NCBI RefSeq assembly: GCF_000166055.1
Contig: NC_014664.1
Span: 1,451,927-1,515,926 of the forward strand
DNA: 64,000 nt
Reading direction: 5' to 3'
From: Rhodomicrobium vannielii ATCC 17100
Lineage (GTDB): Bacteria; Pseudomonadota; Alphaproteobacteria; Rhizobiales; Rhodomicrobiaceae
A program made the translations under genes and the position numbers. This document shows positions 28,081 to 33,353 of the stretch, piece after piece; position 1 is the first letter of the stretch, and the number at the start of each line of letters is the position of its first letter. The notes under the pieces are model-generated. The model did not search any database, was not told the DNA's origin, and was given only the letters and a program-made list of their open reading frames with translations.

Positions 28081-28641
28081 TTAGGCAGCGCGGCGCTCGT
28101 GCCTGCCCTCGCGCACCTCTTCGATGATCTTCGCTGAAAACGCGTCGAGATCGGACGGCTGACGGCTCGTAATCACGCCGTTATCCGTCACGACGGCCTC
28201 GTCGACGAACTCCGCGCCCGCATTGGTGAGGTCGGTGCGGATCGTCTTGTATCCCGTCGCGCGCTTGCCGTTGATGATCCCCGTCTCGATCAGGAGCCAC
28301 GGCGCGTGGCATACGGCTGCGACGGTCTTGCCTTCGGTATAGAAGTCCTTGATGAACGAAAGCGCCTGCTCATTGCCGCGCAACAGATCGGGGTTGATTT
28401 GCCCCCCCGGCAACACGATCGCGTCGTAGTCGCTGGCGTGCGCTTCAGCGAGCGGCCGGTCCACCTTCACCGGGTTGCCCCAGTCCTTGCCGATCCAGCC
28501 ACGTATCTCGCCGGCTTCTGGCGAAATCACCTCAACCGTTGCGCCCGCCTCGCGGAGCTTTTTCTGCGGCACTTCGAGTTCGGATTGCTCAAAACCGTTC
28601 GTCGCGAGGATCGCGATCTTCTTGCCCTGGATGTCGGCCAT
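28081..28641 (-). CDS. DJ-1/PfpI family protein (YhbO/PfpI-like)
   Basis: A 186-residue class I glutamine-amidotransferase-like protein. KKIAILATNGFEQSELEVPQKKLREAG is the N-terminal strand-helix with the conserved Glu, LPGGQINPDLLR the middle loop, and VAAVCHAPWLLIETG the nucleophile elbow with the catalytic Cys and adjacent His. Family members act as stress-related deglycases, hydratases or proteases; which activity applies is not decidable. The ATG at 28641 fits the family; the frame opens 18 codons earlier. Downstream of the patatin gene on the same strand with a gap of about 175 bp. Confidence 0.9.
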   Translation of the reverse strand: MADIQGKKIAILATNGFEQSELEVPQKKLREAGATVEVISPEAGEIRGWIGKDWGNPVKVDRPLAEAHASDYDAIVLPGGQINPDLLRGNEQALSFIKDFYTEGKTVAAVCHAPWLLIETGIINGKRATGYKTIRTDLTNAGAEFVDEAVVTDNGVITSRQPSDLDAFSAKIIEEVREGRHERRAA

Positions 28642-28815
28642 ATTGTCCTCCTTGTTCGCGGCGCGGGAGCGAACCGGGCGACGCACGTCAAGCACATCGC
28701 GCTCGTATGACTTCCTGACGCGCCCCGCGTTGAGCTTTGCGTGTTGAAGGGCGAACGATCCGGCGCGCAGGCTGTTCCAGGCGCATGCTCTGCGATAAGA
28801 GGCCGAAACGGCGGC

Positions 28816-31131
28816 TTAACCCGGCGAAAGCTGCCAGCTTCCGACAAGCTTCGGCGTGAGCAGCGCGGTGATGCGCTTCAACTCGCAACTGTTGCGGATC
28901 GCCATCCTGACGCCCTCGTCGGACGCCTTCACGGCCTCGGGCTCGGTGCAACCAGCCGGGTCGCCGATGGTGAGGCGGATAATGTCGCTCGAAAGCTCGG
29001 ACAGTTTCCAGCCGAGCGGGAGCGGAAAGGCGCGCTGATCGAGCTGCACGACGATCATCCTGTCGCCGAGCGCCTTGCTCGCCTCGGTGACCGCCCGGCG
29101 CGATTGCAGGTCGCGCACGGAAAGCAGCGTCGTCAAAGGCGATATCGTGTCGTAGATCCAGCTTCGCACCGGCTCCAGACCGGCAGGCTCGACATCCGTC
29201 GCGTTGAGCGCCTTCAACTTGTCGGTCAGCGCGATCAGATAGACGTCGACATCGTCCCCGCCGATGCGTTTCACCTCCTCGTAAAGCTGAAACGCGGTCG
29301 CGGTCGCGGATGCGTCGGCATAGCCGCCATCGACGAAGGTGAGGCGCTGGCCGCCGCCAAGCTCGGAGACAAACGGCGGCATCAGAACCGGAAAGCGCGC
29401 GCTGATTACCGCTGCGCCGATGAGCGACGGGTCGGGCGCTTTCGTGCCGACGTCTCGGAAGGAATAGAGTGTGCCGCCCCCGAAGGATTGCAGGTCGAAC
29501 GGAGAGAACGCCACGCGGTAGCCCGTCTCGACCCAGGTTGCGTTAAGGAGAAGCGCGGGCAGGTCCGTGTTCGCGGCGTCAGGCCAGCTTTGCGAATAGG
29601 GCGCGGTAAGTATGACGTCGCGGCTGCCCGTTCCGTGTAGCGCGGGCTTGCCGCCGCCGGAGGGATCGCTGCGGCGGAAGCTCTCGACGAAGCTTCGCTC
29701 AAGAATCGCGTCGCGTCCGACAACGCCGAAAGGCAGCGCCTCGCTAAGCGCCTCCGGCGCCGACAGGCTGGCGGGGAACAGGCCCCGCATGAAATCGGGC
29801 ATCAAAAATGCCAGCACCGGGCTGATGTGGTCGTCTTCGGTGATCGTCCGCAGCCGCTTCGTCAACTCGCGCGGCTCCACGAAGCTGCCACAGCCCGGCT
29901 CCACGTCAACCGCGGCTTTCGGCGCTCGCCCGCTCGCCTTGCTGTCGGCGAAGGCGGCCGTGAACAGGCTTGCACCAACCGCGCCGCCCGAAACCGCGCT
30001 GATAGCGAACACATGCCGCGCGAACGCCGGGCAGTGGTCCTGCATCGCGGCGAGGAATGCCCCAGCCGACGACGCGGCGTAGATGCCGCCGCCCTGCGCC
30101 GCCACGATGAAGACGGGATAGCGGCCGCCGCCTTCGGGCTTTCGCTGATGCAGCCACGTCTTGAAGGACGTTTCGAGATCGGCCCCCGCGTGCTCAAGCG
30201 CCGCCGCGCGCAGCGGCTGAGTATCGGGCCGGTCGGCGATGATCCCCCTGACGAGAAAAACGAAGGCGATGAGCGGCAGCGCTGCCACGACAGCGTAACG
30301 AAGGCCGGGAAATCGCCCGGTCGACAGGAGCGCCCATGAGGGCAGCGCCCGGATCAGCCACAGAAAGCTCGTGAGTCCGATGACGACGACGCGCACGAGC
30401 ACAGCAATCTCGATCAGCACAAGCGCGGTCGTGACGAGCGGCCCAGCGAAGCGCGTCGCACCGAGCGTCCAGTCTGGCGCCGCCACAGGGACGATGGCGA
30501 AGACGAGCGCAACCAGCGCGCAAAACCATACCAGCACCGCATGCCTCCCGCTTCGCAGCAAGAGGACGATCAGCGCGCCCCAGACGAACGCTGTCACGGC
30601 ACCGCTTGCGATCACCATGTCCAGCAGGTCGGATAATGTGCCGAGCGCGTGGCCCTGCGGAAGACCGCCGCTATCGCGCAGGCTTTCCGCATCGAGCACA
30701 TGCCGATAGACCTGCGCGAGGCCGAGCAGGATGCCAACGAACGGAAGGCTCGCCGCGACGGCGCAATAGATGTCGCGCAGCCGGAAAATGCGGCGATCGA
30801 AATGAATATCTGCGTGTTCGGGATAGATGCGGTCGATGCGGCGCGTCACCTCGACATGGTTCCACGCGTACAGCAGCGCCGCGAACAGCGCCACAGCCAG
30901 AAGGCCACCAACGCCTCGCGCGATATCGGGGCGTTCGATCAGCGCCAGATAGATTTCCTGCATCTGCGGCACGAAGGCGAAGAGCCAGGCGGACGCGAGG
31001 CCGATCAGGATCGGCGTGATATAGGCTGTATCCGAAAGATAACGGAAGACGCGGTTCCACGGCATGCCCGCACGCGCGCGCCGCAGATGAAGGCGCAGAC
31101 GCCTCCCCCGCGTGATGGTCGACAAGCCCAT
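28816..31131 (-). CDS. Membrane-anchored patatin-like phospholipase
   Basis: A 771-residue protein: about seven membrane helices (residues roughly 38-56, 72-90, 122-142, 175-193, 198-215, 230-255, 278-296) followed by a cytosolic or periplasmic patatin domain (about 335-770). The domain has the oxyanion loop GGGIYAASSAG (347-357), the nucleophile elbow AVSGG with Ser381 (Ala replaces the first Gly of GxSxG), and the catalytic Asp601 in FVDGGYADAS. Patatins are phospholipases A. The ATG at 31131 follows a GGGGGG ribosome site. It lies just downstream of a Nudix-macro fusion gene, separated by a family A repeat. Large membrane patatins of this kind occur in various bacteria, with roles mostly unknown. 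Confidence 0.85.
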   Translation of the reverse strand: MGLSTITRGRRLRLHLRRARAGMPWNRVFRYLSDTAYITPILIGLASAWLFAFVPQMQEIYLALIERPDIARGVGGLLAVALFAALLYAWNHVEVTRRIDRIYPEHADIHFDRRIFRLRDIYCAVAASLPFVGILLGLAQVYRHVLDAESLRDSGGLPQGHALGTLSDLLDMVIASGAVTAFVWGALIVLLLRSGRHAVLVWFCALVALVFAIVPVAAPDWTLGATRFAGPLVTTALVLIEIAVLVRVVVIGLTSFLWLIRALPSWALLSTGRFPGLRYAVVAALPLIAFVFLVRGIIADRPDTQPLRAAALEHAGADLETSFKTWLHQRKPEGGGRYPVFIVAAQGGGIYAASSAGAFLAAMQDHCPAFARHVFAISAVSGGAVGASLFTAAFADSKASGRAPKAAVDVEPGCGSFVEPRELTKRLRTITEDDHISPVLAFLMPDFMRGLFPASLSAPEALSEALPFGVVGRDAILERSFVESFRRSDPSGGGKPALHGTGSRDVILTAPYSQSWPDAANTDLPALLLNATWVETGYRVAFSPFDLQSFGGGTLYSFRDVGTKAPDPSLIGAAVISARFPVLMPPFVSELGGGQRLTFVDGGYADASATATAFQLYEEVKRIGGDDVDVYLIALTDKLKALNATDVEPAGLEPVRSWIYDTISPLTTLLSVRDLQSRRAVTEASKALGDRMIVVQLDQRAFPLPLGWKLSELSSDIIRLTIGDPAGCTEPEAVKASDEGVRMAIRNSCELKRITALLTPKLVGSWQLSPG

Positions 31132-31301: not shown

Positions 31302-32600
31302 CTATTCCCCCGCCTTCACCTCGACGGGTGTGACGCCGGTCACGACGCGAATTTCGTTCTTGAGTCGCGCGAGATCCCCCTCCGAATAGGCGACGAAGTA
31401 GATTTCGCGCAAAGGCGACTTCGGATTCTCCGCGAAGAAGTCGCGCGCGCCCTTGACCAGAACCGGCACCACCTCGCTAACCGGAAAGCCGCCCTGCCCC
31501 GTGCCGAACAGCGGAATCAGCGCCGAGCGATAGCGCCGCTTCGAGATCGCGGCCAGGACGTTGTCGATGGATCGCTCGATATTGGCAAGCGTCGTCGAAA
31601 GGCCCGTGCCGATGTCGCCCGCCACGCTCGCAACGTGGAAGATGCGCTGCACATTGTGCGTCTTTTCGAGCTCGCCCGGTTCGGTTTCAAGCACCGTGCC
31701 GGGCGTCACGAAGTTGCGACCGCCCAGCGCCTTCGTGAGTGCGAGACCGATCGTGTCCTCCTGTATGGACGTGCTCCCCTCGTGCTTTTTCGCGCCGAGC
31801 ACCCGGATCGTTGCCGATACGGAGCGCCGAAAGAAGCGGTCCATCTGCATGTCGGTGTTTTCGGAGTTGACCCACGCCTCAACGTCCTTGATGGCGGAGA
31901 TATTGCCGGTCTTGATGCCGATCGTCTGGCGGGGATTGAGTTCGGCCACGAAGGTTCGCGAGGTCTTGGTGTCGTACTCCGCCGCCAGATTGCCGCGCCG
32001 CGCCATCAGCCATTGCCCGGCGATGATGAGCTTCGGATCCTGAAACTCGCCCGCGACGAGCCTGTCGAAAAACTCGTCGATGGCGAACTCGACGATCTCG
32101 ATGTCTTCGCCCTCGGCCGCGTTGCCGCCGCCCTTCTCGGTCTGATCGACAGTGCGGACTTCGGCATAATAGAGATGGATGATTTCCGTGCTACCGCCGG
32201 GCGACGAGTAATATTTGCCGACAGGCGTCAACCGCGTGAGCTGATAGCCGGTCTCTTCCTGCGTCTCGCGCATCACGCAATCGTAAGGCGTTTCGGACTC
32301 ACCGCCGTCCGTTGTGTTGAGCATGCCGGCGACGGCCTCTACCATCCAACCGCGCCCCGGCTCGCGCAGATGCACCGGCAGGCGGAACTGGCGCACCGTG
32401 ATGATTTTCCGCCGCTCGGGATCGTACAGGAGCGCGCCCACCGCATCGCCGCGCTCGAAGACAAGCGTCGAACGCGGCTCGCTCATCGCGCCGTCGAGAC
32501 GCTCGTGGGACACCGCGTAGTCGTCGACCTTGAAAAACAGATCGAGCACGCGGCTATGCTCGGAAATCGTCACCCGCGACGGCTTTGCCAGGTCAGGCAT
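31302..32600 (-). CDS. Nudix hydrolase (NudK-like) fused to a macro-like domain
   Basis: A 432-residue two-domain protein. Residues about 10-205 are a Nudix hydrolase of the NudK/ADP-ribose pyrophosphatase type; the Nudix box spans about 92-119 and ends RETQEETGY, with all catalytic Glu residues, though the segment between the first Gly and Glu carries an insertion. Residues about 227-410 resemble a macro domain: IKTGNIS, AWVNSENTDMQM (where classic macro domains have VNAAN), RIFHVASV, and LIPLFGTGQGGFP, the phosphate-loop motif of ADP-ribose binding. Nudix and macro folds both act on nucleoside-diphosphate sugars or ADP-ribose derivatives, so ADP-ribose turnover or sensing is inferred. No membrane segments. 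ATG start; lipB ends 81 bp upstream. Confidence 0.82.
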   Translation of the reverse strand: MPDLAKPSRVTISEHSRVLDLFFKVDDYAVSHERLDGAMSEPRSTLVFERGDAVGALLYDPERRKIITVRQFRLPVHLREPGRGWMVEAVAGMLNTTDGGESETPYDCVMRETQEETGYQLTRLTPVGKYYSSPGGSTEIIHLYYAEVRTVDQTEKGGGNAAEGEDIEIVEFAIDEFFDRLVAGEFQDPKLIIAGQWLMARRGNLAAEYDTKTSRTFVAELNPRQTIGIKTGNISAIKDVEAWVNSENTDMQMDRFFRRSVSATIRVLGAKKHEGSTSIQEDTIGLALTKALGGRNFVTPGTVLETEPGELEKTHNVQRIFHVASVAGDIGTGLSTTLANIERSIDNVLAAISKRRYRSALIPLFGTGQGGFPVSEVVPVLVKGARDFFAENPKSPLREIYFVAYSEGDLARLKNEIRVVTGVTPVEVKAGE

Positions 32601-32681: not shown

Positions 32682-33353
32682 TCACGATGGAGGCGCCGCC
32701 GCGGACACTTCCGCGCGCTCCCGAAGCGCCCCCAGCCGTTCGAGCGAGGTGACGCCCGCGTCTTCGATCCCGCACGGCACGATACCCGCGTAATGCGAGA
32801 GGTCGGGCCGCACGTTGATCGCCGTGCCGTGGAACGTCACCCAGCGGCGCACGCGAACGCCGATGGCCGCGATCTTGTCCTCGCGCGCGCCATCGCGCAC
32901 CCAGACGCCCGGCCTGTCGTCGCGTGCCGCTCCCGCCACGCCATAGTCGGCAAGCGCCGCGATCACCCAGTCTTCGAGGTGGCGGACATGGCGGCGCACA
33001 TCGCGCCCGCGCCGGTTCAAGTCGAGGAGCACATAGGCGACGAGTTGGCCCGGCCCATGATAGGTATATTGCCCGCCGCGCCCTGCCGCGTGGACCGGAA
33101 AGCGCGCCGCGTCGAGGAGATCCGTCGCCTTGGCGCTGGTGCCTGCCGTGTAAAGCGGCGGATGTTCGAGGAACCAGACGAGTTCCGGCGCGTCGCCTGC
33201 AAGGATGGCCGCCGCGCGCTCCTCCATCGCGGACACTGCCGCTTCATAAGGCACGAGGTCGGCGCTCGTTCGCCACTCGACGTCCGTCAGATCGCCGAGC
33301 GCCTCACGGTGTGCCAGGAGCTTTTCCGCGAAAGCGGCGACCGCCTGATCCAC
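32682..33353 (-). CDS. lipB: Lipoyl(octanoyl) transferase
   Basis: A 223-residue enzyme transferring octanoate from acyl carrier protein to lipoyl domains, the step before LipA. The [17 protein letters not shown] block, [13 protein letters not shown], the [17 protein letters not shown] segment with the conserved Lys, and [14 protein letters not shown] with the catalytic Cys are all present. The start is a GTG at 33353. It is followed on the same strand by the Nudix-macro gene 81 bp downstream. Confidence 0.95.

Follow-up and report, generated by a model that had tools for sequence, protein, structure and literature searches.

In the current work, we describe a gene of the photosynthetic bacterium Rhodomicrobium vannielii in which a Nudix hydrolase domain and a macro domain are joined in one chain. 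The gene lies in a 64,000-nucleotide stretch of DNA (hereafter, the window). The fusion is genuine, well beyond chance, and the identities of its two domains are secure; from these and from the genomic setting we infer a role in signaling. Our preferred reading, to which we assign a probability of roughly 0.4, is that the protein would act as a two-domain reader and hydrolase of an ADP-ribose-type nucleotide, possibly controlling a lipase encoded downstream. The initial annotation mentioned neither this neighboring lipase nor the losses of the segment in sister species, both of which shape the likely function of the fusion. The minus-strand gene order is lipB, the fusion gene, a membrane patatin-like gene and a DJ-1/PfpI gene, and the features discussed below are as follows.

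32682..33353, minus strand: lipB (lipoyl/octanoyl transferase), the housekeeping upstream neighbor; fixed left edge of the variable segment, in a conserved flank.
31302..32600, minus strand: the complete Nudix-macro fusion gene, with an ATG start and 432 aa, defined by its translation and an orthologue.
31974..32600, minus strand: Nudix hydrolase domain, residues 1-209 (domain from ~14), of the YffH/AdpP (NudF/NudK) subfamily, defined by profile matches and by catalytic residues in the translation.
31305..31976, minus strand: macro domain, residues 209-432 (core about 215-420), with WVNSENTDMQM as loop 1, GTGQGGF as loop 2 and no MacroD GGGVDGAIH loop.
28816..31131, minus strand: membrane patatin-like gene downstream of the fusion, with about 8 predicted membrane-spanning stretches between residues 36 and 298, followed by a patatin-like lipase domain at the C-terminus.
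28081..28695, minus strand: DJ-1/PfpI family protein, downstream; fixed right edge of the variable segment, in a conserved flank.

Domain identity of the fusion protein

The open reading frame given in the initial annotation (31302-32600) was recovered exactly, and its strand, not stated there, is minus. A full-length orthologue, 88% identical, is found in Rhodomicrobium sp. Az07 (L009, also G658). Comparison of the two genes gave dN/dS values of 0.16 for the Nudix half and 0.15 for the macro half, with 0.18 for the downstream lipase-like gene and 0.15 for lipB. Both halves of the fusion are thus conserved as coding sequence under purifying selection of similar strength. An artefact is excluded, since a second Rhodomicrobium species carries the fusion intact and purifying selection acts on it there. 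A structure prediction of the whole protein from three sequences was of low confidence (pLDDT 45), and we therefore claim no relative placement of the two domains.

The Nudix half matches Pfam NUDIX (PF00293) with E=1.4e-12 and 48.2 bits against a cut-off of 21.1, and the NCBIfam model TIGR00052 (YffH/AdpP) with 109.4 bits against 79.55, which upholds its earlier placement among Nudix hydrolases of the NudK/ADP-ribose-pyrophosphatase type. The intact Nudix box reported previously (RETQEETGY, residues 111-119) is present in the translation and reads E103-x7-R111 E112 xx E115 E116 x G118, with all catalytic residues in place; GEDIEI follows at residues 164-169. Likeness to NudF (ADP-ribose diphosphatase) and NudK (GDP-mannose pyrophosphatase) extends over the whole Nudix half, including the catalytic box, and its solved relatives are 1viu, 3o52 and 9b1z, the nearest being NudK and ADP-ribose pyrophosphatases. 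NudF and NudK are single-domain proteins of about 190-220 aa, whereas the fusion continues into a macro domain at its C-terminus and has six extra residues ahead of the Glu of the Nudix box. This insertion, between G92 and E103, makes the loop longer than in NudK and recurs in a lone Nudix protein of another Rhodomicrobium genome. The NudF/NudK equivalog models PRK10729 (95.2 vs. a cut-off of 248) and PRK15009 (88.9 vs. 234) both fell below threshold, so that the substrate of the Nudix half cannot be named from sequence.

The macro half reaches 23.9 bits with Pfam PF01661 (E=4.1e-5, cut-off 22), and its Az07 orthologue reaches 26.8 bits; no other macro domain is found by this model in the R. 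vannielii genome. A single-sequence phmmer search of solved structures with the macro half returned the PARP14 macro domains (5.9e-9) and also macroH2A1, and a profile built from three relatives reached PARP14 at 2.7e-16. An AlphaFold model of residues 209-432 has a mean pLDDT of 87 and a pTM of 0.88; it was built from an alignment of 49 sequences, namely the fusion protein, its Az07 and L010 (Acidobacteria, see below) relatives and 46 viral macro proteins, so that the alignment consists mostly of distant MacroD sequences. The structures closest to this model are the macro domains of macroH2A1.1, PARP9 and PARP14, with Z of about 24 and 2.1-2.3 A over 186-191 residues. The match to macroH2A1.1 (Z 24.3, 2.2 A, 186 residues) answers the doubt raised in the initial annotation as to whether residues 227-410 adopt the macro fold, and the profile searches and structure prediction proposed there confirm both domain assignments.

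The macroH2A1.1, PARP14 and PARP9 macro domains are the best matches of the macro half in both structure and sequence, and a GxGxxGF-type loop 2 is common to both groups. Judging from the alignment, the aromatic Y405 of the macro half probably falls in the adenine-stacking region. In contrast to these domains, to which it is about 19-20% identical, the macro half is bacterial and fused to an enzyme, and its WVNSENTDMQMDRF and SATIRxLGAxK motifs are distinctive and common to L010. The motifs AWVNSEN (242-248) and PLFGTGQGG (363-371) lie where they were first reported, and the departure from VNAAN noted at that time is real: in an alignment with MacroD-type proteins VNAAN becomes VNSEN, while GTGQGGF of loop 2 is kept. 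GGGGVDGAIH, the MacroD loop that supplies the catalytic Asp, is absent, and DRFFRRSVSATIR occupies its position in the alignment. The macro half does not carry the MacroD signature of VNAAN plus GGGxDGxIH; VNSENTDMQMDRFFRRSVSATIR stands there. NCBIfam deacetylase models scored far under their cut-off (18 bits vs. 271). Because the MacroD loop is replaced, homology does not predict the classical MacroD mechanism or the release of ADP-ribose, and these motifs favor a reader function for the macro half over that of a classical MacroD-type eraser. The earlier proposal of a relay, in which ADP-ribose is freed by one half and hydrolyzed by the other, is therefore not supported. The adenine-binding Asp of the GDI motif corresponds to Asn233; the two Rhodomicrobium proteins share this Asn, whereas L010 has the usual Asp, and the substitution could weaken the binding of ADP-ribose.

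Genomic neighborhood and loss in sister species

The fusion gene and the lipase-like gene lie on the same strand, separated by 170 bp in R. vannielii and 25 bp in Az07. Counted from its ATG, the lipase-like protein carries QGGGIYA at 346, SAVSGGAVG at 378 and DGGYAD at 601, so that the GGG, xSGG and DGG elements are all present. Pfam Patatin (PF01734) gives 15.5 bits here and 24.0 in Az07 with a cut-off of 27.7, and the protein is designated patatin-like on these motifs and sub-threshold scores. PADLOC returned no match for the fusion or the lipase-like protein, and where relatives of the lipase occur elsewhere, no macro or Nudix gene adjoins them. The G+C content of the fusion-lipase segment (0.61-0.68) falls within that of the flanks or just exceeds it. 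We considered a recent acquisition of the segment and rejected it as judged by composition, which resembles that of the flanks and bears no sign of foreign DNA.

Two sister Rhodomicrobium genomes have lost parts of this region. G655 matches the window at about 92-95% identity in the flanks, and all that remains there of the fusion-lipase segment is a Nudix scar of ~60 bp and the final 23 lipase codons. G657 lacks the macro half and almost the whole lipase; its Nudix half is open to residue ~208 and continues directly into the final part of the lipase gene. The scars show that both genomes have lost the lipase gene and that G655 has also lost the fusion gene; in G657, the parsimonious assumption is that the macro half was lost. 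The segment is dispensable. That the macro half and lipase disappeared together from G657 while the Nudix half was kept fits a macro-lipase partnership, but it could also reflect chance deletion of adjacent dispensable DNA. By position, different deletions with scars are seen at L055:9440-9700 and L053:8820-9000 in two sister Rhodomicrobium genomes, and each of them stops within the final part of the lipase gene.

Distribution of the fusion and its macro relatives

Nudix homologues occur in 128 of the 289 sampled genomes of the class, and sampling of about 1,000 genomes within the phylum (overlapping samples of 289, 398, 21, 321, 385 and 289) gave no second Nudix-macro fusion. When one genome of each bacterial species was scanned, an approach that detects no more than the close relatives of a single query, the matches were Az07 and one Acidobacteria metagenome-assembled genome (MAG), the latter with the macro half only. 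Whole-genome searches within the phylum added one further relative of the macro subclass (G626). On plasmids, no fusion was present and matches were confined to the Nudix half and a Streptomyces macro protein. Viral contigs yielded ordinary MacroD proteins but nothing related to the fusion, its Nudix half or its macro subclass, and phage records searched with the macro half gave no match. The literature searched, with subscription papers and InterPro architecture tables outside its scope, contained no description of a bacterial Nudix-macro fusion; Nudix and Macro domains have been described as separate parts of NAD-linked conflict systems (PMC7159879). Within these genomes, plasmids, viral contigs and publications, the novelty surmised in the initial annotation stands. 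As far as could be searched, the combination is undescribed, and it is a rare assembly of known parts and no new kind of domain.

Several candidates were rejected on inspection. Two long matches from the class-wide search (L016 and L024) consist of a Nudix gene followed by an unrelated gene whose product carries GNTPLIRL, with no macro domain. Long-frame macro matches (L081, L095, L104 and L076) were read and all lacked a Nudix domain, one being an FHA-cyclase-macro protein and the rest ordinary macro proteins; four others (L079, L085, L097 and L080) fell outside this reading. A further four (G316, G393, L070 and L071) are ordinary MacroD-type proteins. One of the proteins encountered, L095 (G411), is another unusual macro fusion, joining FHA-like, adenylate-cyclase-like and ordinary MacroD-type macro domains in one chain.

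Relatives of the macro half were found in three settings. In the Acidobacteria MAG (L010:682-1854), a macro domain of the same rare subclass, 39-42% identical, is joined to a TIR-like domain on its N-terminal side (E=6e-7 for the PADLOC TIR effector), with two HIT/CwfJ-like proteins and a nucleoside-deoxyribosyltransferase-like protein encoded nearby, and this cluster looks like a nucleotide-based conflict system. On a Streptomyces clavuligerus megaplasmid (L037:5497-12447), the gene for a related 380-aa macro protein lies upstream of that for a RES NAD+ phosphorylase, in a row with another protein, a CHAT protein and, on the opposite strand, a caspase. We regard this row as a candidate conflict system; PADLOC gave no match for either of the two proteins searched. 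In G626 (L032:561-2473), a transmembrane-macro protein is related to the macro half (E=3.6e-15, profile A2); its gene overlaps a PARP-like gene on the opposite strand, followed by one for a cytidylyltransferase-like protein, and the protein resembles a Thoeris-like effector with no TIR gene recognized nearby. Since relatives of the macro half recur in NAD or conflict settings, with TIR-like, RES/CHAT or transmembrane modules, we lean towards a nucleotide reader.

Proposed function and alternative explanations

A characterized precedent for such a reader is the TM-macro effector of Thoeris, whose non-MacroD macro domain binds ADP-ribose and imidazole adenine dinucleotide and oligomerizes (PMC11204291). 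Like the fusion, this ThsA (PDB 8V6Q-8V6S) couples a macro domain with a non-MacroD binding site to another module, and the TM-macro protein of G626 relates to the macro half. Unlike ThsA, the fusion has no transmembrane segment and no adjacent TIR protein ThsB; 8V6Q-8V6S were absent from the PDB sequence-search results and from the structure matches listed, an absence that excludes nothing. A type II Thoeris system, with a TM-macro ThsA and an adjacent TIR ThsB, was rejected in the lack of both. No signal-producing enzyme occurs in the neighborhood, and the four TIR proteins of the genome (TIR_2 matches) are encoded at 3.04-3.43 Mb, more than 1.5 Mb from the window at 1.45-1.52 Mb. They lie at C1:3039150-3073117 and C1:3434079-3434411; two are near 3.07 Mb, and one has a predicted nucleotide-binding region behind its TIR domain. 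TRPM2 with its NUDT9-homology domain resembles the proposed arrangement in linking a Nudix-type module for ADP-ribose to a membrane effector, but it is a eukaryotic channel with Nudix and effector in one chain and no macro domain, a likeness in principle only (PMC5671594).

By analogy with the Thoeris effector, the macro half would bind ADP-ribose, either free or altered by base exchange or another modification, and the tethered Nudix domain would cleave the pyrophosphate to yield AMP and a ribose-5-phosphate derivative. More tentatively, reading of the nucleotide might switch on the membrane patatin-like lipase, hydrolysis by the Nudix domain might limit or end this signal, and the fusion-lipase pair might constitute a dispensable stress or phage-response cassette. 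This reader-hydrolase reading draws on the significance of both domains, the confident model of the macro fold, the intact Nudix catalytic residues and the absence of the MacroD loop. It is further favored by purifying selection on both halves and the lipase (dN/dS 0.15-0.18), by same-strand adjacency in two species, by the joint losses in G655 and G657, and by macro relatives beside NAD-consuming or conflict modules. It is weakened because the fusion-lipase link is seen in one genus only, where adjacent dispensable genes may be deleted together by chance, and because lipase relatives have no macro or Nudix neighbors, a signal-producing enzyme is absent nearby and the TIR proteins are distant. 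The Asn in place of the GDI Asp, the sub-threshold Pfam score of the lipase and the preponderance of distant MacroD sequences behind the macro model weaken it as well.

The main rival, which we consider nearly as probable, is that the protein simply cleans up, with the macro half as an accessory to binding: the Nudix half would remove free ADP-ribose or a nucleotide sugar, the macro half would only raise the local substrate concentration or help the protein to dimerize, and the lipase would be unrelated. The wide occurrence of NudF/NudK-type enzymes in the class and the housekeeping nature of the adjoining lipB agree with such a role, as does the open Nudix-only gene that G657 retains without the macro half and lipase, which indicates that the Nudix half can stand alone. 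However, the whole fusion gene is missing from G655 and hence dispensable, the macro half is constrained as strongly as the Nudix half, and the relatives of the macro half sit in conflict-type contexts.

An eraser of ADP-ribosylation, whose macro half would free ADP-ribose from protein, nucleic acid or a small molecule for destruction by the Nudix half, is unlikely. Replacement of the loop with the catalytic Asp and the low deacetylase scores speak against it, and no ADP-ribosyltransferase partner was recognized beside the fusion gene, although both folds act on ADP-ribose and PARP14, whose macro domain 1 is one of the closest structures, is reported as hydrolase-active (PMC10499325), so that lack of the MacroD loop is no bar to activity. 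It is very unlikely that the fusion is a protective factor that binds and destroys ADP-ribose-derived immune or toxin products, sparing the cell from NAD-consuming effectors: its chromosomal site lies between housekeeping-type genes with no adjoining effector except the lipase, and no viral relatives were found on the contigs searched, even though phage Macro and Nudix proteins have been proposed to counter such signals (PMC9503650) and TIR proteins are encoded in the same genome.

A more specific form of the reader-hydrolase reading, which we consider unlikely, is a hitherto undescribed NAD-derived signaling cassette in which the macro reader and a signal-ending Nudix domain in one chain would gate a membrane patatin-like lipase that damages the cell's own membrane upon infection or stress, placing sensor and off-switch in the same protein. 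With a reader and a hydrolase of ADP-ribose-type nucleotides in a single bacterial chain, the fusion would be a compact and testable case of a signal being sensed and removed by one protein. Knowing the ligand of this rare macro subclass, members of which accompany TIR-like, RES and membrane modules across unrelated bacteria, could help to reveal an ADP-ribose-derived messenger that still lacks a name, together with its effectors.
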